From the NCBI GenBank assembly GCA_023078555.1, contig CM041198.1, positions 1,786,800-1,850,799 of the forward strand: a stretch of 64,000 nucleotides of DNA. The letters are read 5' to 3'. This stretch comes from Ulva prolifera (Eukaryota > Chlorophyta > Ulvophyceae > Ulvales > Ulvaceae). The notes beneath the pieces were generated by a model, which was not told the DNA's origin, made no database searches, and worked only from the letters and a program-made list of their open reading frames with translations. Of the stretch, positions 4,524 through 50,632 are shown piece by piece. A program made the translations under genes and the position numbers. Positions within the stretch are counted from its first letter, which is position 1. Each line of letters starts with the position of its first letter.

Positions 4524-7131
4524 ATGGATCTGAAGAGCTTGCAGACGCGCTACAGAGACGGTGCCGCACCGGTGAACGTGGCGCTTCAAGTCCTCCAGTC
4601 CTGCGAGAGCAAGCCGGAGCTACGCGCCTCTTTCATTTGTCTTGCATCTGAAAAGCAAGTGCGGCAGGCCAGCGCTGATGCAGAAGCCATCGCTCCTGCT
4701 GCCAGGTGATCTTCTCACGCAGCGCAACCGTCCGTCCGCCTTCGATGAGCTGGAACGTTGACACTGCTAATCATCTTTTGAAAGCGTGTCATCTTCCTGC
4801 TGCGTGCAGACGTCTGTGGCTGGTACCGCATTGTCGACGTGCTGTGTTCAAAGGACCACGCTGCGACTCGCTGCGTGTGGATTCAATTCGAGAAGCGATG
4901 CTGTCTGAATCTTGCAGTGGCCATAATGGTTAACATGTTTACCTTCTGGAGCTGAAGGTTGATGTGATTGCTGACTTGCGCACCACTACACCTGTGCAGG
5001 GGCCCCCTATGGGGCGCGTGCTTCGCAGTGAAAGACAACATAGATGTCGCTGGCTTCCAGACCACCGCAGCATGCCCGGAGTTCTCATACCCAGCCCAAC
5101 AGAGTGCCCCAGCAGTCCGTGCCTTGCTCGAGGCAGGGTGCATCTGCATCGGCAAAACAAACATGGACCAGTTTGCCGCTGGCCTCAACGGCACCAGGTC
5201 GCCGTACGGCGTTCCGATCAATGCCGTTGATGGCCGGGTCATCCCGGGGGGCTCGTCGTCTGGCTCAGGCGTTGTTGTAGGAAGCGGGCTCGTGACATTC
5301 TCGCTGGGCACGGACACCGCAGGCAGCGGGCGAGTGCCGGCCGGGTTGAATGCTGTGGTTGGGGTGAAGCCCACTGTCGGCTCGATCTCCACACAAGGTG
5401 CAGTGCTGCTCGCAGTGATGCAAGTCTCATCCCGCTGATTCGATCTGCACCGCCCCCGCGGGTCCCAGTCAGTCCGAAGCCTGGCCTGTTGTGTGTAGGA
5501 GTAGTCCCGGCATGTGGCTCTATTGACTGCGTGAGCGTATTTGCTCAGAATGTGACTGATGGATGCATGGTCACCATGGTGCGTCTGCCAGGCTGGCTCG
5601 AGATCGTCCTGCTGCAAGCTGCAGCCTGTCAGCGCCCTTCTTGCACCACCTGGGTTTTTGCGGTGCAGGAAATGGCAAAGGCATCCCGATACCCAGCTGA
5701 CCACACACTTCGGTTCCAGCAGCCATCGCCGCAGTCCCTGCAGTTGGCGCCTCCTGACGACCTCCCGGCCTTTGCGTTTTCAGCTCCAGCAGACCATTTG
5801 CTTGATTTCTCCGGCCCCCGCGGAGATGACTACAACAAGCTATGCAAAGCTGCCATGGCTGAGGCAGTCTCTCGGTGCGTGTGTGGCTGTTGTTGCTGCT
5901 GACAGGGACCGGCCTTGCTGCTGCCTCCGTGCTGCCGGCAAAAGTTTGCAGTACCTTCCACTGGCGTACTGATTGCCCTAATCACCGAGGCTCTGTCATC
6001 GCTGATCGGCCGCCAGTGTAGGATTGAGGGTCTCGGGGGGGTGCGCAAGGAACTGGACTTTACCCCGCTCTGTGACGTGGCACAGATGTTGTATGGTTCA
6101 GCCCTCGTCAGCGAAAGGTATGCGGGCATCTCAGAGTTCTTGTTGCAAGGTGATGCTGGGAAGCAGGGGACAGGCGTTCCTGACATAGCGGAAGATGAGC
6201 GCCTGCTGCCTATCACCCGCTCCATCATCAATGGCGCTGGTGCGCCAACCCGCCTGGCCTGATGAGGCTGTTGCTGTATGTAGACCGAGTCATGCACGGC
6301 CTCAGCGACAGCTTTCACATTGAGATGCTTTCACATCGAGATGCTCAAGAGCACGTATGCTCTCTGGACAACGAGCATGTAGACGAGGGCATTCCACACT
6401 GCAGCTCCATGCTCATGCGTGCAGGCTCCTATTCTTCAGTAGATGTTTTCACAGCACAGGCGCTCCTGCGAGAGAAGGTGGCCCGTTGTCGAGCAATGAT
6501 GGCCGAAGCTGGGTGCACATACCTGGTCGTGCCGACGGTCATGCACCACTACCTCGTCTCTGAACTCCAGGCTCAGGAGGATGGCGGCAGCGTGCAGTTC
6601 AACGCTCATCTTGGCAAATTCACCAACTTTGTCAACCTGCTCGGGCTACCGGCTATGTCAGTCCCAGCAGGCTCGCTGCCTCCGTTGCAGGAGGAGGTGC
6701 GCCTCCTCGCGGCTTGAATCTAGCTAGCTTCCTTTCACGGACACCAGGTGCTCACGTGCTATGATACCGGCGATTGGCCGTAAAGGATGCCGTGCCGAGG
6801 CGTGCCTGTCTTTTGGCTGCAACCGCTCCCTGCTTGCTGTTGCCCGCGCCCGCGATGTAGGCCTGAATCTGCGGTTACAGGGCAGTCCCGTTCAAAACAC
6901 CTCAGCTCTGCATGGGCTGCACATCGCTGGCGCCAAGCTGCTGCTGTGTCAGCGAGCATGTGGAGATTGCACCGAGTCACACATCGCATGCAGGGACTGG
7001 GAGACCCAATCAAGTGTGCTTTTGGGGTAACTTTCATAGCCGCAAGTGGTGAAGACCCTACATCCCAGCTGCCGTTATGGGCACTCGCACAGGCATTCGA
7101 GTTGAACCAAGCCTTAGGATCACAGCAGTGA
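4524..7131 (+). CDS. DUR2: Allophanate hydrolase (amidase-signature), seven exons
   Basis: Hydrolyses allophanate to ammonia and CO2, the step after urea carboxylase. Exons read by eye: 4524-4705, 5000-5397, 5499-5578, 5669-5874, 6022-6239, 6425-6696, 6994-7131; phases are consistent, giving 497 residues. Amidase-signature motifs: [11 protein letters not shown] (catalytic Lys about 72), GGSSSGSG (cis-Ser about 146), [13 protein letters not shown] (nucleophile Ser about 169), then [23 protein letters not shown] and [12 protein letters not shown] near the end. The family is usually near 600 residues with a C-terminal helper domain. That domain is not visible here, so the protein is either amidase-only or extra 3' exons were missed. 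A split carboxylase/hydrolase pair is typical of chlorophytes. The last intron is the least certain. Confidence 0.9.
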
Positions 7132-39450: not shown

Positions 39451-40067
39451 ACAGGTCATCTCCCATACGGCGGGATGGGACCATCATGCGGAGTTGTACC
39501 CAGGTTCAAGTTGTGTTCGTGCGCACGTCTACATGCACGATGATCTCAGTGCTTAATAAGGAGATATATGAAGATGCTAGTGAAGAGTGGTATGACTGCT
39601 GCGCAACGCCTCGTAGCCACATGGTGCACTGTGTGCGACTGATCCCCACGGCGTTTTTAAGGCCAACTAACGTATCGCTGTCCGGGTATTCGACAACGCG
39701 ATATGACACATGCTTATAATCTACAAACTCTGCGGTGATGCAGTATCCGGGCCGTGTTGTATTATCTGCTCATGTACGTGCTTGAGAGCACCTGCAGGTA
39801 ATGATGTAAGTGTGTATGTACCAGCCTGAGCCGGAGGCGAGATGGACATCGCACACAACAACCTGCGCCACGTCTTACGCGGCACAGAGAGTCAGTGACA
39901 CCATCGTCTGCGCCAGCTCCACAATACACGCGCAGTAGCCATGTACCTCGTTTACAGTACACAAAGCTTCTTGGTTCACCGTGGATCATTTGACGCGAAC
40001 CTGGTTGTTGCCCACTCTGCAGTGTCTCTAGGATGAAGCTTACCATGATCACTCCGGAGTCCCTGTC

Positions 40068-40819
40068 TGTTGTGAAAGTGCCTCGTAGCGCACAAGGCAG
40101 GTGCACATGCGAATGCACGCACGGGGTGACACGTGGCAGTCACCAGCCCGCGAATGAGAAGACACATTCCAGCTCTCTGTATATGTCGAACAAGGTCATG
40201 GTTCAAGTATCTGACTCGGATACTGACCATGCAGGTGTGATCCCAGATCTCAGGCGTCATGTGCTAAGTACTCCGCACACATACTTAACATTTCGCCCAA
40301 CTAAACTTACGGTATGACGCTTCCACTCGCGCTTGCATTCGAACAGGTATCGATGAGTAACCACGATCACATGGGCCCATCATAACGTAAGCACCACATG
40401 ACGCCTGTGATCGCTCTAACATGACCTCTCGTGTGCACAACTTCCCACAGGACATTCCAAACACTCGACGCGCTCCGAGAGAACTTCCACATGTGCCTCA
40501 TGAGCTAGCTCGCACACGCTCGCTCCCGTGAAGGGGGGAGGTGTTGTGAAAGTGCCTCGTAGCGCACAAGGCAGGTGCACATGCGAATGCACGCACGGGG
40601 TGACACGTGGCAGTCACCAGCCCGCGAATGAGAAGACACATTCCAGCTCTCTGTATATGTCGAACAAGGTCATGGTTCAAGTATCTGACTCGGATACTGA
40701 CCATGCAGGTGTGATCCCAGATCTCAGGCGTCACGTGCTAAGTACTCCGCACACATACTTAACATTTCGCCCAACTAAACTTACGGTATGACGCTTCCAC
40801 TCGCGCTTGCATTCGAACA
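40068..40819 (+). mobile_element. TRIM miniature LTR retrotransposon (copy 1)
   Basis: Two 278-bp LTRs (40068-40345 and 40542-40819; TGTTG...GAACA) differing at one base by eye, around a 196-bp interior with no coding. The interior starts GGTATCGATGAGTAACC, a methionyl-tRNA-like primer site, and ends with the polypurine tract GAAGGGGGGAGG. This is the TRIM/SMART architecture, which depends on another element for all enzymes. Confidence 0.88.
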
Positions 40820-41613
40820 TGTTGACTGATCGGGTAGCGCAGGGAGCTGGGCACCCTAGCGAGCGTACAGAAACGACAGGAGAGAAGGACTCGGGTAACA
40901 ATGTAGCACACAGTGGAATGACTGGAACAGGAGCGCCCCAATCGACCAAAGGTAATTGTTTCGATCACAGCAAAACACTTGGAATATATGTGCCCAGGCC
41001 CATCCCTGCTTTGTGCTGTCCTCGCTACTGATAGCTCTGTGGAACTGTGGAATCGCGCTGCTCGTTGATCTCTGTACGGATCAGGGTGCAGCATCCCGCG
41101 AGATCTGGCGATCTGCTGCGGGCATTGGGATTTGGCATGTATCATCCTCCGTCAATCCAATGCAGCAACATCGTGCTGCATGGATACGCAGACGTAGGTT
41201 GGCTGGCATGGTCTTTGACGCTGCACCCTTGGCGTGCGCAAGCGCAGACCAGGAGTATGCATGCGCCGCATGCATGACGTGTCATGCACTGAGCTGGCAC
41301 TTCGCACTGCCAAAAGGCTGTGGCAAAAGGTGGCATGATACATGGGATTGGTATGTGAGATTATACATGTTGAGGAATGCTAGTGGCACTTTTGGGCATG
41401 TGGAATTATGCACATGTAGCTGTATGCATGCAGCTCATGTGCACAGCTGTGACGTGGTACATGCTGGCATTCTGAGGTATTCTTTGGTATACTTTCGCCT
41501 GGCTCAAGTTTTGCAAGGCACTAGCCTGAGATACATACACATGTATCCACAATTGGTGCCTGCATATCTGGAATAGGTGTGCTTCTGAGCAGACAGACTT
41601 GGCCATTACAACA
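40820..41613 (-). repeat. Ty3/gypsy 3' LTR
   Basis: In minus orientation it starts TGTTGTAATGGCC right after the polypurine tract GGGGGGAGGTG (41614-41625) and ends CAGTCAACA at 40820, 794 bp with TGTTG/CAACA termini. The matching 5' LTR is not present. Assigned from the tract and termini, since there is no second copy to compare. Confidence 0.65.
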
Positions 41614-41827
41614 CCTCCCCCCACACACGGGAGCGGAGCAGGGCAAACAAGAGTATGCTCTGCAAGCTCAGGGCAAGTCTGGAAGCTCAGGTAAGCAGAT
41701 AAATGGAGACAGCACATTGACTTGAATGGTAGGGTACATCATAAGACCGGGGCAATGTGGTATTTACAGAGAAGGGTCTACTCATCTGGAATACGGATGA
41801 GTGACCTTGTTGGAATAAAGGCTAGTT

Positions 41828-42226
41828 CTAGAGCTGGCTGGGGAACTCATCGCAGAGATCGTGGAAATACTCTGGCAACAATTGACGACCTGAGTAGCGG
41901 TTTATCATTTCACTCATGGCCTCATCTAGGTCTAGGACTGCATCATGCAGCCTGCGAGTAACTCTTCTGACATGGCAGAGGTCAGTGAGGTACTGAGAGT
42001 GGTAGTCTCCAAGCGCTGGCATTGTAGTGGCATCTAGCATCAACTGGCGGACGTTCTGGAGAAAGCGTCGACGCTGGACGAGGGAATGGGATGTCGGATC
42101 TTGTGGGATCTCAGGGACTGGCAAGTTTCTAACTGCACACATAGGTGGGTTCAGATGATGGAATTGGGTCTTATCGGGTTTTATGGAAGTCACATGATGG
42201 AAAAACAGGTTGGTGCCCCGCGACAT
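41828..42226 (-). CDS. Extra ORF downstream of gypsy pol, 132 residues
   Basis: ATG at 42226 (MSRGTNLFFHHVTSIKPDK). The C-terminal two thirds are rich in charged helices (RRRFLQNVRQLMLDATTMP, VTRRLHDAVLDLDEAMSEM). It lies between the pol stop (42358) and the polypurine tract, where some gypsy elements carry a third ORF. No signal peptide or transmembrane segment, so not envelope-like. Function unknown. Confidence 0.5.
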   Translation of the reverse strand: MSRGTNLFFHHVTSIKPDKTQFHHLNPPMCAVRNLPVPEIPQDPTSHSLVQRRRFLQNVRQLMLDATTMPALGDYHSQYLTDLCHVRRVTRRLHDAVLDLDEAMSEMINRYSGRQLLPEYFHDLCDEFPSQL

Positions 42227-42357
42227 GCAACCTGGCGGATCAGATTTAGGCAGGGGTTGGCCTTGCTCCCGGGAGCCCCCTCCTCACATCACCTATGGCC
42301 TGGAAATCCCCGGCCTCACAGAGGCAGTCTGCTTACATCCAGGCGTCCCCTTCAGCA

Positions 42358-45300
42358 TCACAGCGGGGGGGCAGCATTAGCGCACATGCGCTTTGCGGAC
42401 TCAGTCCGCATCCTACCGCAATAACTGCAATAGGTGACCCTGGAAAGTGCTGCCTTATGGGATTCGCTCAACCGAGAACTACGTCTACGCGGTTTGCGTT
42501 TGGGATCGTCGATGTTGCTGCCACCCGCGGGCACCTTCCCCCCAGCGACGGGACGCCTGGTGGATTCAGCCTTGGCTGCTATATGGGACAGATGTATCCG
42601 CGCTTCACGCGGAAACTCATGAATCATGTGCGCTCTCTGAGTACTGGAGGCATTGTGGAACAGATAATCGGCAACTTTCTCCAGGCATCCGGACAACTCA
42701 TCAACTGGTAACCAAGAGTCATGAGATGCATCGTAGCCAACCCAGCGCACCAGGTAGTGAGGGCACGCGATGGAGATGTCGTCATCGCGATGCCGCGACT
42801 GCATGTAATTGACTACACATTCAACTTCATAAGTGGTCGTGTCCACAGTGGCCGATGACTTGGCAGCTTCAGGGCTGGTGGCGCATGCAGCATCGAAGGA
42901 CTCATTGTAAGGTTTCAGCACAGAGAAGTGAAAGACATCATGTAGACCTAGGCGCTGCAGCGTGGTCGGCAATGATATACGGGCCGCGGCCCGGCCCACT
43001 ACTTCCAGAATTTTACAGGGACCCAACCAACGCGGAGTAAACTTCTTTCGGAGAGATGGATGATGCAGAGCAACCTTACGTATAGATAGCAGGACCAAAT
43101 CACCCACAGAAAAGGTTGGCCAAGCAGATTTCCTGTTGAAATCCGACCACATTGACTGCTTGGCCTCTACCAGAGCTTGCTTTGCTAGGAAGTAATACAT
43201 GCGGTGCATCACAGCTGGAGCTGGTTGCTGATGCTGTGGCAATTTGAGCGCAAGGGCTGTGGGAGACAGCGGCGGAGTGATACGGTTCAAAGAGAACGGC
43301 GTGCAGCCCGTGGCTGCCGACTTGGAGCTATTCATACTGAACTCGATATGTGGCAGGAATGCATCCCAATCATCATGTGCAGGACCGATGAAATGCCGAA
43401 CAGCTTCTTCCACAACGCGATTGTAACGCTCAACTTGCCCATTGGCTCTAGGATGGTAGGAGAATGTCAGCTGCAATGCAATGCCTAGGTGATCACAAAG
43501 GGATGTGAAAAATTTATTGTTCCACTGCGTACCGCGGTCGCTACAAATGCCAAGTGGCAGGCCATAATGGGGGTATATGTGCTGGAAAAACAATGCAGCG
43601 AATCCGGGACCATTCAGAGTAGACACTGTGGGGATCAATCTTACCATCTTGCTGAATTGATCAACAAATACAACAATGCAATTGTGCCCAGACGTGGAGT
43701 TAGGCAGTTGCGTGATCATGTCTACACTCACGATACGCCAGCATGCAGAAGGTACAGGTAGCGGGGACATGACTGCCTCCCGCTCCGACGGGGACTTCAT
43801 GGTCTGACAGCTATGGCATTGTGACACAAATTTCTTGACATCTTTGTGTATATCTGGCCAGTAAAATGAGTCTGTGATCAATGATGCTGTGCGAGAGACA
43901 CCCATGTGTGCATGCCAGGGGTGTACGTGGTGCCACAACAGAATTTGCCGGCGCAAGTGATCATGATCAGGGACAACAATCTTGTTCTTGTGCAGATAAA
44001 TCTGGTGCTTAGGGTCGTAATGGTATGATGCAGGTGGCTCGGCAAAATCAGAATCATGTGCATAGCCACTACGCAATCGCTGCCAGAAGTCGTCCGCGTG
44101 CAGATCTAGAGTCAAGTATTTGTTGGATTGTTTCAGAAGCAGCTCTGCTTGTGAATGCGTACCCACACGCTGTGCGTCGACTGCGCGGCCGTCACACACC
44201 AGGTCCTCCTGGTCGACCCAGTCCACCGCGGAAGCATCCGGCTGCGCGGTCGCCACGTCGTCCTCACGCGCGGGCTGTTGGTGGAGGGGTGAGGCCGAGG
44301 AATTCGGCCTCCTCCGCTGTAGGCGCGAAGTCAATGTCTGACATCGGAGATGGGGTGCGGAGGCAACCAGGAGCGGTCGCGGAGAACGGCGGCGGGTCGG
44401 CGTTGGCATGGGCCGGCGGGGAAGTGGGGATGGGGGCGGTGGCAGCGCTGGCGGAGATCCCGTTGGCATCAACACCGGGGACCGCTGAGACTCCAGCTGC
44501 TCGCCCATGCGGGGGCTGGACCCCGAGCTGATGGAAATCACTGATGGCGGCGGCTGCGTGGGCCGCCGTGGGTCCTGTGGCTGGGACAGAGGGGGAAATT
44601 GCGACCGGGAACGCAGGTCTGGCATGGGTGGGGACAGGCCGGGCGGGGGTGAACCGAACTTCTCCCGTAGCCGGGAGTAGTCGCAGGGCTGGGGAGAGAT
44701 TGTTGGCAACGTCTGGTGGTATGGGATGGCCTGATTCATCGGCGACGGGCCAGATGATATGGCCGTTGATCCAGTGCTGGCGATTGGCAGCTCGTATCCG
44801 CTTGGATCCGGGGATGGGGAAGAGTGGCATCTGCGCGCTATAGCCGTGGTCAGACTTACGGCCGGAAATGCATAAGAAACTTGCACTGGAATGGCATTGC
44901 CCGCACGAGAGGCACAAGAAATGGGATGGTCATCATGCAGTTGTACTGTCATGGAAGGCAGGTGCGTGGCACGAGACACTGCATCGGCCACCACGTTCTT
45001 GTCACCAGGCACGTACATGATGTGCCAATTGATGCGGGACAGCGTCTCTACCCAACGCGCTTGCTTGTTATTCAAGCGTTGCTGGGTCTGCAAGTATCTC
45101 AGTGGATTATGGTCAGAGTGGACATACACGGGGTGGCCATTTTCCAGATAGCAACGCCATTGGCGTGCAGCAAAAACAATGGCGCCCAGCTCTTTTTCAA
45201 AAGTGGCATGGTGGACCTCAGAGGAATTCATTTTTCGGCCTACCCATGCAATGGGATGCAGAGCTGCTTCATGGTCTTGCATCAAAACAGCTCCATAGGC

Positions 45301-45708
45301 ATAATCACTGGCATCTGTGTATACATGGAAGGGCTGGTTGAGATTGGGATGGCGCAGGCCTGTGGCATTGATCAGAGCATGTTTGATGTCATTGAATGCT
45401 CGAGTGCATTGTTCAGTCCATGCGCTCTTGCCTTTGGCTTTCATGCGCTCGAGGAGTGGGACAGCAAGGGTGGGAAATTTCGGAATAAATCTGCGAAAAT
45501 AGCCAGCAAGACCCAAGAATGATCGGATGGTATTGGTTGACGATTTTAAATCAGCCTCAGGCCATTGTTGCAACACTGAAACCTTGTGTGGGTCTGGCTT
45601 CACGGTATCTGCTGTAACAATATGGCCCAAGTATTTGACTTCTTGCATGGCAAATTGGCATTTGACAGCATTGCAGAAAAAGTTGTGTTCATGCAGCCTA
45701 GTCAACAC
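42358..45708 (-). CDS. Ty3/gypsy Pol: RNase H, integrase, chromodomain
   Basis: 1116 residues in the frame following a 1-nt shift near 45705. Order: end of reverse transcriptase (VKYLGHIVTADTVKPDPHKV, FLGLAGYFRRFIPKF), RNase H (YTDASDYAYGAVL, FEKELGAIVFA, VHSDHNPLRYL, DKNVVADAVSR), a Pro/Ser-rich linker of about 250 residues (about 44900-44150), integrase zinc region (HVHPWHAHMG...CHSCQTMK), DDE core (VDMITQLP, SDRGTQWNN, ANGQVERYNRVVEE) and a chromodomain (YEVECVVNYM...HYLVRWVGYDASHDSWLP) at about 42830-42640. A CxxC motif ends the protein. The chromodomain places it among chromoviruses. Confidence 0.94.
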   Translation of the reverse strand: MLTRLHEHNFFCNAVKCQFAMQEVKYLGHIVTADTVKPDPHKVSVLQQWPEADLKSSTNTIRSFLGLAGYFRRFIPKFPTLAVPLLERMKAKGKSAWTEQCTRAFNDIKHALINATGLRHPNLNQPFHVYTDASDYAYGAVLMQDHEAALHPIAWVGRKMNSSEVHHATFEKELGAIVFAARQWRCYLENGHPVYVHSDHNPLRYLQTQQRLNNKQARWVETLSRINWHIMYVPGDKNVVADAVSRATHLPSMTVQLHDDHPISCASRAGNAIPVQVSYAFPAVSLTTAIARRCHSSPSPDPSGYELPIASTGSTAISSGPSPMNQAIPYHQTLPTISPQPCDYSRLREKFGSPPPGLSPPMPDLRSRSQFPPLSQPQDPRRPTQPPPSVISISSGSSPRMGEQLESQRSPVLMPTGSPPALPPPPSPLPRRPMPTPTRRRSPRPLLVASAPHLRCQTLTSRLQRRRPNSSASPLHQQPAREDDVATAQPDASAVDWVDQEDLVCDGRAVDAQRVGTHSQAELLLKQSNKYLTLDLHADDFWQRLRSGYAHDSDFAEPPASYHYDPKHQIYLHKNKIVVPDHDHLRRQILLWHHVHPWHAHMGVSRTASLITDSFYWPDIHKDVKKFVSQCHSCQTMKSPSEREAVMSPLPVPSACWRIVSVDMITQLPNSTSGHNCIVVFVDQFSKMVRLIPTVSTLNGPGFAALFFQHIYPHYGLPLGICSDRGTQWNNKFFTSLCDHLGIALQLTFSYHPRANGQVERYNRVVEEAVRHFIGPAHDDWDAFLPHIEFSMNSSKSAATGCTPFSLNRITPPLSPTALALKLPQHQQPAPAVMHRMYYFLAKQALVEAKQSMWSDFNRKSAWPTFSVGDLVLLSIRKVALHHPSLRKKFTPRWLGPCKILEVVGRAAARISLPTTLQRLGLHDVFHFSVLKPYNESFDAACATSPEAAKSSATVDTTTYEVECVVNYMQSRHRDDDISIACPHYLVRWVGYDASHDSWLPVDELSGCLEKVADYLFHNASSTQRAHMIHEFPREARIHLSHIAAKAESTRRPVAGGKVPAGGSNIDDPKRKPRRRSSRLSESHKAALSRVTYCSYCGRMRTESAKRMCANAAPPL

Positions 45709-47423
45709 ACGATCAAGATGGCATGATCCTCAGCAGTTCTGGAAATGATGATAATGTCATCGAGGTATGCAAGGCAAATCTTGCCAATCAGTCCACGCAA
45801 GACCACGTGCATTGCTTGTTGGAAAACACTCGGTGCATTGGTGAGACCGAATGGCATCACCGTCCATTCGTACAGGCCATCAGGGGTGCGGAATGCAGTT
45901 TTTGGCTGGGATGTCGGGGCTAGTCTGATCTGGTGATATCCAGAAGCAAGATCCAATGCAGAAAAGTATCTCTGGCCTTGCAATTTATCAAGCAAGGCAT
46001 CTATGCGTGGTAATGGGTATGTATTCTTTACTGTGTTCTCATTCAGGTAGCGGTAGTCGACACACAGTCTCAGTTTACCTCCGGGTTTGGGAGCAAAAAG
46101 GACGCTGCTTGCCCAAGGGGAGATGGACGGCTGAATCCAGCCCATGTCAAGCAAATGTTGTACTCGCTTTCCCAGTTCAGAGTGTTCCAGTGGAGTCAAT
46201 CTATACTGGCGGGCAGCACGTGGTCTGGTGCCAGGCAGATTCTCAATATTCATTTCAAAGCCTAAGGCTGTGGTATTTGGGGGTGCAGGCCCGAGCGTGC
46301 CTCCGGACTTGGAATGTTTGTGTACTATCTCTTGAACACACTGTGGGATGGTGGCTACATCTTGCTGGACTGGTGCTGGTACTTGCTGTTGGGACAGAAA
46401 ACCTTTCTTTTTCGACGCCGCACATACATGCATATCGCTGGAAGGCTCGACGCGTGCATGTGCTGGTTTGACATGCACCACGTACAGAGGCGACTTACCA
46501 CATTTAGCACGATTGACCATAGATTTCAGCTTACGGCTGGTGCATGCATACTCATCTGATGTTCCCTGTGAAGCAGGTGTGCGTTTGGGTATGTGCACGA
46601 CATGCTGCCAATCACGAGAATGCTTTCGGGGGCCAGCCTTACGGCCAGGCACGATGATGCGAATGTCCGGATCATCAAACTCGAGTTTCATGTGCGTGAC
46701 GGCAATCACATCAAGACCCAATAGCGCGTGATTGGGTGCATGCCACTCTGCAGCCGGCAAACTTGCTACCACAGTGTACGTGACATCGTGACGCTGGCGG
46801 CCTATGCTTGTGCATAATGTGACAGTACCGAGGCAGGGTGCTGCACTCCCAGAGATGCCATGCGACGTGGATGCGCTTTGGTGATATGGTATGGCATTGG
46901 CCTGTAGGAATTCTACTGTAATCATGCTGTGATTGGAGGCTGTGTCTACAAGCGCCTTCAAGCGGCTGCCTTTGATGTGGATGGGGACTGTGCAGATCAG
47001 ATCCACAGCGTCAATTTTCTGACTAGCACAAGAAATAGCAGATGTATTTAGGCTCTGCTGGTTGGACATCAATCGCAAAACATGGAACGTCTGGTGACCT
47101 GGCACTGGGCGGCCGTCCGTATAGGACAACAATGCATTGGCTTTGTCTACTGTGCTGTAGCTGTGTCTGCTAGTGTACGGCACGAACGCATCACTATCAA
47201 ACAAGCGGCCAGGGATGGCTACTGTGACATGGTGCCCATTCAAGTTGATGGCATGTAAATGTCTCAATGCTACGTGTGCATCATCAGTGTATGGCAAGGT
47301 AACAACAATAGGGCAAGATAGCGTGGAAATATCGAATAATGACGTGTCAGCTGTGCTGAGTGAGGAAGGAAAAACAATGCCGTGGCCTGAGGCGTGGTCA
47401 GCCGCTAGTACAAAAGGCTCCAC
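45702..47423 (-). CDS. Ty3/gypsy Pol: protease and reverse transcriptase
   Basis: 574 codons without an ATG at the start; the frame is the same as gag (47463 and above), separated only by TGA at 47463-47465. Protease motif LVDTASNHSM near 46940 (DTA rather than DTG or DSG). Reverse transcriptase: WIQPSISPWASSVLFAPKP, LRLCVDYRYLN, YFSALDLASGYHQI, MPFGLTNAPSVFQ and the catalytic YLDD at about 45763-45774. It breaks after AEDHA because one base is missing around 45705; HLDRVLTRLHEHN continues in the other frame. Confidence 0.92.
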   Translation of the reverse strand: MEPFVLAADHASGHGIVFPSSLSTADTSLFDISTLSCPIVVTLPYTDDAHVALRHLHAINLNGHHVTVAIPGRLFDSDAFVPYTSRHSYSTVDKANALLSYTDGRPVPGHQTFHVLRLMSNQQSLNTSAISCASQKIDAVDLICTVPIHIKGSRLKALVDTASNHSMITVEFLQANAIPYHQSASTSHGISGSAAPCLGTVTLCTSIGRQRHDVTYTVVASLPAAEWHAPNHALLGLDVIAVTHMKLEFDDPDIRIIVPGRKAGPRKHSRDWQHVVHIPKRTPASQGTSDEYACTSRKLKSMVNRAKCGKSPLYVVHVKPAHARVEPSSDMHVCAASKKKGFLSQQQVPAPVQQDVATIPQCVQEIVHKHSKSGGTLGPAPPNTTALGFEMNIENLPGTRPRAARQYRLTPLEHSELGKRVQHLLDMGWIQPSISPWASSVLFAPKPGGKLRLCVDYRYLNENTVKNTYPLPRIDALLDKLQGQRYFSALDLASGYHQIRLAPTSQPKTAFRTPDGLYEWTVMPFGLTNAPSVFQQAMHVVLRGLIGKICLAYLDDIIIISRTAEDHAILIVC

Positions 47424-47462
47424 CGCCCAAGAAGGGCAGCCAAGAGGCGGCTTGCCAGTTTC

Positions 47463-48124
47463 TCAACGGATATGGTTGCCAGGGGCACGTGCTCGTTTGT
47501 TCGGAGTCTGAGGGGTATCATCATACCGTTTGCGATTGCGGGGGCCCGCGGAATTTGGAGTGTTTGCCGCGCTCTGCGGCTGCGGCGGCGGGGGTGGTGG
47601 CGGCGGTAGCTCGTCGGCGGGCTCCACTGCCATCAGGCACTTGTTCTTGTTGGCAGGGTGTTGCGCCCAGGTTGCGAGCGCCTCCGGCGCAATGGAACGC
47701 GCGGTAGGGCAGTCCGCGATGCGGTGGTACCTGTCGCTGTCAGGCATGGAGGAGGGGCAGATGCCGCAAACTCGCTTGCGGTGGTGGAAAGTTGCTTCCA
47801 AGAGGAATATCCCGACGGCCACGGGTGTGAATGGAAGGTAGTAAGGGAGCTCTTTACGGCAGGCTGCCGCAAGACCGTGGATGGTGAATGGCGCGTTGTG
47901 GTTGGCAACTTCAAACGCATACACATCTTTGATCCACTGTGGTACGGTGGGACTGCCCATGGCATTATCGAGCCAGGCCTGCTTCTGTTGGAATGGAAGC
48001 TTACGGGCGTCCCGGAGGCCTGGTAAGCGCTCCCGGTTGACGCTGGAAGATGGCGTAGATGGCTGCACATATGTTGAATGGTTGTTGGAAAATTGGCTGC
48101 GACTCTGGCCTGGTCTTTGGGTAT
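47463..48124 (-). CDS. Ty3/gypsy Gag, 5'-truncated
   Basis: About 219 residues, open at the 5' side where TRIM sequence begins at 48125. A nucleocapsid-like CGICPSSMPDSDRYHRIADC has CX2CX10HX4C spacing, longer than the usual knuckle. It is followed by an Ala/Lys segment, a Pro8 run and a basic tail (RNRKRYDD, NKRARAPGNH). It stops at TGA 47465-47463, in frame with protease. True start, leader and 5' LTR are missing. Confidence 0.8.
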
Positions 48125-49627
48125 TGTTCGAATGCAAGCGCGAGTGGAAGCGTCATACCGTAAGTTTAGTTGGGCGAAATGTTAAGTATGTGTGCGGAGT
48201 ACTTAGCACATGACGCCTGAGATCTGGGATCACACCTGCATGGTCAGTATCTGAGTCAGATACTTGAACCATGACCTTGTTCGACCTATACAGAGAGCTG
48301 GAATGTGTCTTCTCATTCGCGGGCTGGTGACTGCCACGTGTCACCCCGTGCGTGCATTCGCATGTGCACCCTGCCTTGTGCGCTACGAGGCACTTTCACA
48401 ACACCTCCCCCCTTAACGGGAGCGAGCGTGTGCGAGCTCATGAGGCACAGGTGGAAGTTCTCTCGGAGCGCGTCGAGTGTTTGGAATGTCCTGTGGGAAG
48501 TTGTGCACACGAGAGGTCATGTTAGAGCGATCACAGGCGTCATGTGGTGCTTACGTTATGATGGGCCCATGTGATCGTGGTTACTCACCGATACCTGTTC
48601 GAATGCAAGCGCGAGTGGAAGCGTCATACCGTAAGTTTAGTTGGGCGAAATGTTAAGTATGTGTGCGGAGTACTTAGCACATGACGCCTGAGATCTGGGA
48701 TCACACCTGCATGGTCAGTATCTGAGTCAGATACTTGAACCATGACCTTGTTCGACCTATACAGAGAGCTGGAATGTGTCTTCTCATTCGCGGGCTGGTG
48801 TTCGAATGCAAGCGCGAGTGGAAGCGTCATACCGTAAGTTTAGTTGGGCGAAATGTTAAGTATGTGTGCGGAGTACTTAGCACATGACGCCTGAGATCTG
48901 GGATCACACCTGCATGGTCAGTATCTGTGTCAGATACTTGAACCATGACCTTGTTCGACCTATACGGAGAGCTGGAATGTGTCTTCTCATTCGCGGGCTG
49001 GTGACTGCCACGTGTCACCCCGTGCGTGCATTCGCATGTGCACATGCCTTGTGCGCTACGAGGCACTTTCACAACACCTCCCCCCTTCACGGGAGCGAGC
49101 GTGTGCGAGCTCATGAGGCACATGTGGAAGTTCTCTCGGAGCGCGTCGAGTGTTTGGAATGTCCTGTGGGAAGTTGTGCACACGAGAGGTCATGTTAGAG
49201 CGATCACAGGCGTCATGTGGTGCTTACGTTATGATGGGCCCATGTGATCGTGGTTACTCATCGATACCTGTTCGAATGCAAGCGCGAGTGGAAGCGTCAT
49301 ACCGTAAGTTTAGTTGGGCGAAATGTTAAGTATGTGTGCGGAGTACTTAGCACATGACGCCTGAGATCTGGGATCACACCTGCATGGTCAGTATCTGTGT
49401 CAGATACTTGAACCATGACCTTGTTCGACCTATACGGAGAGCTGGAATGTGTCTTCTCATTCGCGGGCTGGTGACTGCCACGTGTCACCCCGTGCGTGCA
49501 TTCGCATGTGCACATGCCTTGTGCGCTACGAGGCACTTTCACAACAGCTGGTGACTGCCACGTGTCACCCCGTGCGTGCATTCGCATGTGCACCCTGCCT
49601 TGTGCGCTACGAGGCACTTTCACAACA
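48125..49627 (-). mobile_element. TRIM copy 2, interrupted by TRIM copy 3
   Basis: Reading minus: 5' LTR 49627-49547 continued at 48798-48596, interior 48595-48404 with primer site and polypurine tract, 3' LTR 48403-48125. The 5' LTR is split at GCTGG by copy 3. Its 3' terminus abuts truncated gypsy gag without a target duplication. LTRs are near-identical to those of copy 1, with TATCTGAGTCAGATA where copy 1 has CTGACTCGGATA. Confidence 0.88.
48799..49546 (-). mobile_element. TRIM copy 3, complete, with its own target duplication
   Basis: 748 bp: LTRs 48799-49076 and 49269-49546 (278 bp each, no difference seen by eye), interior 49077-49268. Flanked by GCTGG at 48794-48798 and 49547-49551, inside the 5' LTR of TRIM copy 2. 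This shows normal 5-bp-duplicating integration and very recent activity. Confidence 0.92.
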
Positions 49628-50632
49628 CTGTCCCATTACCTCGCCCAACTTGAAGCAAAAAAACAATATGAGCCTACATTTTATGAATTCGTAAGGGTAG
49701 CAGCGCGAGGTAACTGGTTGCCAGGGCAGCGTATCCCGCGACTGGTCCAGTACCGAGCACACGGATTTCCAGTCGACTTGATGGAATGCGGGTGGCTATT
49801 ATCTGCTTATGATGTAGCCACAATAGATAGCCTGTTAGCCGGCGACCATGCAGCGGGGCCCCGGATGATGGCAGCCTTCGCGGCAATGCGAACGAAGCTG
49901 ACGAAGGCATACATGGCGGCGACGACTGAGTACAACGCTGCGACCATCCACCTCAAAATGTTGTGGGTAGTAGTTCGTGAAGGCGCTTTTGCGCGGGCGG
50001 GTCAGACCGGAGCCCCATGCGGGCCGCAGGAGATCCAGCTGGACCGGTCCATCGCCACGACCCAAGGGTTTGACGAGGACATGGGGGGGATGCTCCTGTG
50101 ACTCCAGATGACAGTCGGAGGGGCCCCGATTATAGCATGGTGGGGTAGGCTGCAGAACAGCGAGCCGCAGACAGTGGCCAGAGGTAGTCGTTGAGCGCCA
50201 TCTCTCGGCCCCAGGTTTGCCGGTCCAACTGGCGAACCTGGGTGGGCAGCCATCAGACCCACGTGGAGGGGTGGTCGAAGTAGCCCAATCGCCAGCCCCC
50301 GACAGGGCCCCGTTCCAGCAGGCGGATTTGTCAGGGCAGAGAGACGTCCACGGCTCCACCTTGCGAACACACAGGCAATGTGTCCGGGACAACCGAGACC
50401 CGGACCTGTGCTCCAAGCGCTGCGGGGCGGAAAGAGCAAGCAGCGGGGGCGGAACGAGGGGGCAGCGCCGGACCGACAGCCGCGGGGGGGCCTGCCATAG
50501 GGCGTCCACTGATGCAGCCCGCCGTCCCCGGCCGGCGGGTCCACGGCGCAGCACAAGCTACGGCTGCAATATATAGTCCCAATAGGGCCTGAGCCGGGGT
50601 CGCCGCGCCAAGATGCCAGAGGTGCCACGCCC

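Follow-up and report, generated by a model that had tools for sequence, protein, structure and literature searches.

How can a block of long terminal repeat (LTR) retroelements be flanked by a single short target-site duplication (TSD) and present the same LTR start, in opposite orientations, at both of its outer ends? This question is raised by a composite insertion of Ulva prolifera, located in a stretch of 64,000 nucleotides of contig CM041198.1 (C3:1786800-1850799; genome of 88.9 Mb, 44 contigs), which is referred to as the window. Within one pair of CTGTC repeats, two different inverted TRIMs (terminal-repeat retrotransposons in miniature), designated TRIM1 and TRIM2, are separated by about 7.3 kb of a Ty3/gypsy-type element. 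The block was very probably inserted in a single integration that used two U3 (unique 3') ends, one from each TRIM. Joining of the complementary DNAs (cDNAs) of all three elements before integration is also likely, with clearly less confidence, the early joining of the gypsy part being the step that would have to be added.

The outer ends are unambiguous. As stated in an earlier interpretation made from the letters alone (the sequence-only reading), CTGTC lies directly outside 40068 and 49627 (at 40063-40067 and 49628-49632), and the two ends are inverted copies of one LTR start: TGTTGTGAAAGTGCC starts at 40068 and its reverse complement ends at 49627 by direct reading, so that the U3 starts are opposed. 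The same interpretation had described a 9.56-kb unit of three joined cDNAs. A CTGTC-flanked block is indeed present, but this length includes a third TRIM (48799-49546), an ordinary later insertion into TRIM2 with its own GCTGG duplication; without it and the extra GCTGG, the original block comprised about 8.8 kb. Joining of two TRIMs and a gypsy element is still the best reading, although the gypsy element is incomplete. TRIM1 is 752 bp long with LTRs of 278 bp, and the common TRIM copy in the genome has 748 bp.

The host sequence gives a view of the site before insertion. Its reading frame (MITPESLSHYLAQLEAKKQYEPTFYEF...) closes once the unit is removed together with one CTGTC, in agreement with the sequence-only reading. 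A search with the host protein revealed 95 matches in the genome, and ten of these loci were fetched, one being the window itself. All nine others align as DNA through the insertion junction with 86.8-88.1% identity, and each has GTGTC at the aligned pentamer in a single copy, with no duplicate. The uninterrupted site is therefore represented by paralogous loci, not by an allele as had been proposed for a check. At the host site, the insertion looks like one event: it is bounded on either side by an exact element terminus, and its duplication is as long as is normal for TRIM and gypsy elements. The host open reading frame family (window 49475-50101, L059-L068 and the 95 matches) is probably a repeated element or an expanded gene family; a 563-residue piece of the paralog L060 had no Pfam match at E values up to 1.

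The usual length of the duplication was determined from other copies. Of 16 TRIM loci tested, 13, including L041 and L050, have an exact 5-bp TSD. The three misses were L047, whose chosen end fell short by 3 bp (CCCTC is a match after this shift), and the rearranged or partial loci L051 and L053. Twenty-two TRIM loci were mapped; L052, L054, L055 and L056 (truncated), L001 (the window), and L003 and L005 (same place as L041) were omitted from the test. For gypsy, all six copies with two LTRs that were examined (L039-L044, of which L041 and L043 have internal deletions) show TGTTGT...AACA ends in their own orientation and an exact 5-bp duplication. Given exact element termini at either side, a duplication whose 5 bp are usual for TRIM and gypsy, and a clean paralogous empty site, a single integration by way of one U3 end per TRIM, as previously suggested, is the best-supported explanation.

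Two cDNA molecules from different templates contributed the TRIM ends. The LTRs of TRIM1 and TRIM2 differ by two to three substitutions and a 1-bp indel, and their internal regions by three substitutions and four gap columns, while the two LTRs of TRIM2 are identical and those of TRIM1 differ by one substitution. Since TRIM1 and TRIM2 differ, folding back of a single molecule was rejected as the origin of the unit.

The inner joints are equally sharp. At joint 1 (AACA|TGTT), the 3' terminus of TRIM1 meets the 3' terminus of the gypsy LTR exactly to the base, as had been noticed before; no base is gained or lost and an 8-bp palindrome, AACATGTT, results. A degenerate 22-mer covering TRIM-TRIM, TRIM-gypsy, and gypsy-gypsy 3'-3' joints on both strands was searched for exact matches, and a single place in the genome was detected, with none for a backwards-pattern control. 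Further exact joints between 3' LTR ends, for which a search had been suggested, were thus not detected with this pattern. Joint 2 was likewise found at one place only when its 22-mer was searched with up to two mismatches (control, none). It reads AACA|ATACCC in the window versus TACCA|ATACCC in five of five gypsy copies printed, and up to 2 bp (CA) are common to both. By direct reading, neither joint is accompanied by a 5-bp duplication, in line with the claim that the inner TRIM boundaries have none of their own.

Compared with copy L039, which measures 9.84 kb between GAGCT duplications, the gypsy element of the window lacks 2,525 bp on the 5' side, made up of the 5' LTR and the initial 1731 bp of the internal region. 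Its domains follow the order protease, reverse transcriptase, RNase H, integrase, chromodomain, which is that of Ty3/gypsy chromoviruses. Pfam matches above cut-off were obtained for Asp_protease_2, RVT_1, RT_RNaseH, Integrase_H2C2, and Chromo, and the match to rve, the integrase core, was below its cut-off. When residues 1-480 of a gypsy pol frame were searched for relatives, the first match bearing a source name (P0026, rank 26) was from Ulva mutabilis (label Ulvmu1), with 81% identity over 37% of the query, so that the host is likely an Ulva-like green alga. Complete at the 3' LTR but devoid of the 5' LTR, the piece would resemble an aborted minus-strand cDNA. Three features are common to TRIM and gypsy: the termini TGTTGT...AACA, a sequence resembling a primer binding site (PBS) directly after the 5' LTR, GGTATCG[A/G]TGAG, to which no tRNA was assigned, and the purine tract GGGGGGAGG ahead of the 3' LTR. 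Based on these shared features, the gypsy family of the window is likely to supply the enzymes of the TRIM, and one enzyme set could plausibly serve both.

Table 1. Features of the composite insertion and its flanks (window positions)
Feature	Position	Strand	Basis
Left TSD, CTGTC	40063..40067	.	read directly; a single aligned pentamer, GTGTC, at each of 9 paralogous empty sites
TRIM1 5' LTR, 278 bp; outer end = U3 start	40068..40345	+	LTR comparison
TRIM1 internal region, 196 bp; opens with PBS-like GGTATCGATGAG and closes with purine tract GGGGGGAGG	40346..40541	+	
TRIM1 3' LTR; 1 substitution vs TRIM1 5' LTR	40542..40819	+	
Joint 1, TRIM1 3' terminus / gypsy 3' LTR terminus, AACA|TGTT	40819..40820	.	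found once in genome
Gypsy 3' LTR, complete, 794 bp	40820..41613	-	comparison with other copies
Gypsy internal region, 5'-truncated; two overlapping open frames	41614..48124	-	comparison with copy L039 and domain matches
Joint 2, TRIM2 3' terminus / gypsy internal, AACA|ATACCC	48124..48125	.	found once in genome
TRIM2 3' LTR (copy A), 279 bp	48125..48403	-	
TRIM2 internal region, 192 bp	48404..48595	-	
TRIM2 5' LTR (split copy B), inner part	48596..48798	-	with 49552-49627: zero differences vs copy A
Third TRIM, complete, nested in TRIM2 5' LTR; both its LTRs identical	48799..49546	-	
TSD of third TRIM, GCTGG	48794-48798 and 49547-49551		
TRIM2 5' LTR (copy B), outer part; outer end = U3 start	49552..49627	-	
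Right TSD, CTGTC	49628..49632	.	read directly

A sequence of events leading to this structure can be proposed. An incomplete gypsy cDNA and the cDNAs of two different TRIMs, probably together in one particle or nucleus, would have been ligated end to end before integration: the gypsy cDNA would have received the 3' end of TRIM1 at its intact 3' end and that of TRIM2 at its broken 5' side. The joined product would carry a TRIM U3 end at each extremity. A gypsy-encoded integrase, normally serving TRIM ends, would then have paired the two U3 ends and inserted them in a concerted reaction, thereby producing the CTGTC duplication; the further TRIM would have entered the right arm later in the normal way. 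We infer from the structure the order of joining, the action of an end-joining enzyme, and the service of the TRIMs by the integrase of the window gypsy. End-joining of linear cDNA predicts the exact joints observed at three termini, namely the 3' end of each TRIM and that of the gypsy 3' LTR. It also predicts a gypsy element that, as in an interrupted reverse transcript, is complete at the 3' side and cut at the 5' side, and it leaves integrase no free element termini other than the U3 ends.

Further units with U3 starts at both ends were looked for in the genome. A probable second case was detected at L050 (C5:3878400-3880100, positions 585-1105, corresponding to C5:3878984-3879504), a 521-bp insertion with opposed TRIM U3 starts at both ends and GACAC flanks. 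Its left arm is 66 bp long, the remainder consists of an inverted 5' LTR and 185 bp of internal region, the joint shows a 4-bp overlap, CACG, and the arms differ at 3 of 66 positions. Apart from this candidate, no other insertion with two opposed TRIM 5' LTR ends, for which a search had been suggested, appeared among the pairs checked. A broad scan, allowing up to three mismatches and including inner LTRs, gave 258 U3 starts, the first 100 of which were listed; five pairs in + to - arrangement, 3 to 32 kb apart, were picked by eye among them, and none had a common TSD. Seven of the ten LTRs in these pairs have an exact TSD of their own, and none was seen by eye for L071, L076, and L077. Filtered lists contained 121 exact outer TRIM U3 ends (77 + 44), which do not equal 121 proven separate insertions, and 23 gypsy ends, 144 in total. 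These counts are lower bounds, because ends with any mismatch, TRIM ends after GG or GT, and gypsy ends after G are dropped by the filters. Six inward U3 pairs within 12 kb were obtained, all TRIM-TRIM, and two of them, the window unit and L050, have a common TSD. A pair using the end of the nested third TRIM is not a separate unit. L081/L082 was rejected (own TSD GTCCT for L081, none for L082), as were the two LTRs of L080, with no exact TSD either of their own or in common, and L080/L084, where L084 has its own TSD, GTCTG, and none is common. L049, also considered as an inverted unit, proved to be a solo LTR with an ordinary TRIM nested inside (outer TSD CACGT, inner CTTAC).

Several points weigh against the proposed course of events. 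The evidence comes from one assembly, and the gypsy-containing composite is a single case. L050 is no more than probable as a second case, because GACAC is also found at its inner joint; nesting followed by two deletions could mimic such a unit. Four of the six inward pairs within 12 kb are not units with two U3 ends, and two pairs of the broad scan within the same distance, which had escaped the filters, have no common TSD. The route, if real, is therefore rare. Finally, the gypsy element could have entered after an inverted TRIM-TRIM dimer was already in place.

This last possibility is the strongest rival, because it retains the integration by two U3 ends and moves the gypsy step alone. A tail-to-tail dimer of TRIM1 and TRIM2 would have been integrated first, and a truncated gypsy cDNA would have been captured later at the broken centre of the palindrome, or gypsy would have integrated there and lost its 5' side by deletion. 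Long palindromes are known to break at their centre, the two TRIMs have intact 3' ends that point towards the gypsy element, and L050 resembles such a unit without gypsy. However, a break exactly at the TRIM-TRIM joint without resection on either side would be required, or else a gypsy insertion in the last 5 bp combined with a deletion ending exactly at TRIM2. Moreover, no TRIM-TRIM 3'-3' joint matches the exact pattern genome-wide, and no GAACA duplication is found beside TRIM2. Late entry of gypsy is regarded as unlikely.

A stepwise origin is even harder to reconcile with the structure. TRIM1 would have inserted at CTGTC, gypsy in the last five bases of TRIM1 (TSD GAACA), and TRIM2 in gypsy (TSD ATACC), followed by a deletion from the U3 end of TRIM2 to the host CTGTC via shared AACA. 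Nested TRIMs do occur in gypsy and TRIM LTRs (L041, GGCAG; L049, inner CTTAC; window, GCTGG), and AACA would be common to both deletion ends. Yet gypsy would have had to hit one exact site, the deletion would have to be exact at element boundaries on both ends, and the U3 end beside the host duplication would be a coincidence. In addition, a second ATACC (GGTAT on the + strand) or GAACA is not present at the predicted places. This scenario is given very little probability. Nesting in general accounts for the third TRIM only, and tandem or nested TRIMs were rejected as an explanation of the whole. Misassembly or merging of haplotypes appears to be just as improbable. Repeats flank both joints and one assembly is available, but an exchange of repeat copies would hardly place a U3 end next to CTGTC on both sides, one side of an ordinary copy being a U5 (unique 5') end; furthermore, joints 1 and 2 are sharp, with the palindrome and the 2-bp overlap, respectively, and no other copy was found as their source. 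Least probable of all is autointegration, known as a possibility from Ty elements (PMC4751563), in which the processed 3' end of TRIM2 would have attacked the gypsy cDNA at ATACC, leaving only joint 1 to end-joining: TRIM2 ends in CA exactly at joint 2, in the orientation that strand transfer would give, but the junction is as compatible with 2-bp microhomology, end-joining accounts equally well for the shared CA, a branch left by one-ended transfer would have to be resolved, and the yeast data presented there contain no sign of it beyond one consistent mosaic read.

Joining of cDNAs followed by integration through two U3 ends has partial parallels in other systems. Inverted ends had been considered something that normal LTR biology does not produce. 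This is too strong, and insertions with inverted TRIMs are not entirely without precedent: plants commonly contain tandem TRIM arrays, and a maize Zma-SMART array is described as two inverted TRIMs with the TSD CTTCA (Gao et al. 2016, PMC4717578, Fig. 2C legend), the structures of tandem arrays of this family reportedly having been verified by polymerase chain reaction and sequencing (section 8 of that paper). The window unit shares with it the inverted TRIMs in one insertion and the single 5-bp duplication. It differs in that no autonomous element inside the array is mentioned in the maize description; the legend does not state the outward ends, and the corresponding text offers no mechanism. 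Complex LTR insertions of Triticeae, rice, and maize with one 5-bp TSD have been explained by template switching (Sabot and Schulman 2007, PMC1950507). They resemble the proposed origin of the window unit in that two elements were fused before integration, but as described, those complexes have a shared third LTR and normal outer LTRs and arise in one reverse-transcription cycle, whereas the window shows inverted outer U3 ends and end-to-end joints. Such complexes are recognized by like-oriented outer LTRs and an inner LTR that is shared; the window does not fit this pattern, its outer LTRs being inverted.

Cassandra (PMC7215508) and Wukong (PMC4528315) are likewise small non-autonomous LTR elements occurring in arrays. 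For Cassandra arrays, recombination or template switching is discussed; Wukong LTRs are reported to have usually one orientation, ascribed to unequal crossing over, in contrast to the inverted TRIMs of the window. In aberrant integrations of human immunodeficiency virus with drug-impaired or mutant integrase (PMC5041404), a viral end may join further viral DNA in either orientation, which is a likeness. Host repair, however, attaches the second end there, and large duplications or deletions of host DNA usually result instead of a 5-bp repeat as observed here. For Ty DNA, autointegration and end-joining were named as possible routes to circles, with little sign of either in the data reported (PMC4751563). 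Searches of open-licence papers revealed no LTR composite bounded by two U3 ends and enclosing a heterologous element.

The insertion may be viewed as a fossil of the pre-integration fate of retroelement cDNA. Judging from it, an integrase may be able, in a living cell, to bring together two like ends from separate molecules and still carry a normal concerted reaction to completion. It also points to an encounter of parasite and host-element cDNAs at one time and place. Fragments lacking an end would thereby gain a route into the genome, and LTR elements could take on the appearance of elements with terminal inverted repeats. Such a composite would probably be missed by annotation programs that require direct LTRs. 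Whether joining of cDNAs from different retroelements via their 3' (U5) ends, followed by concerted U3-U3 integration, is a recurrent route in U. prolifera is doubtful; if so, LTR elements would yield insertions with terminal inverted repeats that can carry pieces of other elements lacking an end.

TRIM arrays in the same orientation were detected elsewhere in the genome at L041, L045, L047, and L048. L041 (C4:3716600-3726200, positions 5329-6546) is a three-LTR TRIM array with the TSD GGCAG nested in a gypsy copy, which has an internal deletion relative to the window copy. A three-LTR array, L045 (C3:1858600-1862600), and a two-LTR TRIM, L046 (C3:1868900-1870700), lie 10 kb apart with the same TSD, TGCGG, and the same flanks, which looks like a segmental duplication with contraction or expansion of the array. 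At C1:8822040/8823938 and C1:8849660/8851557, TRIM and gypsy U3 ends are situated about 1.9 kb apart in the same orientation, probably as parts of a duplicated segment.

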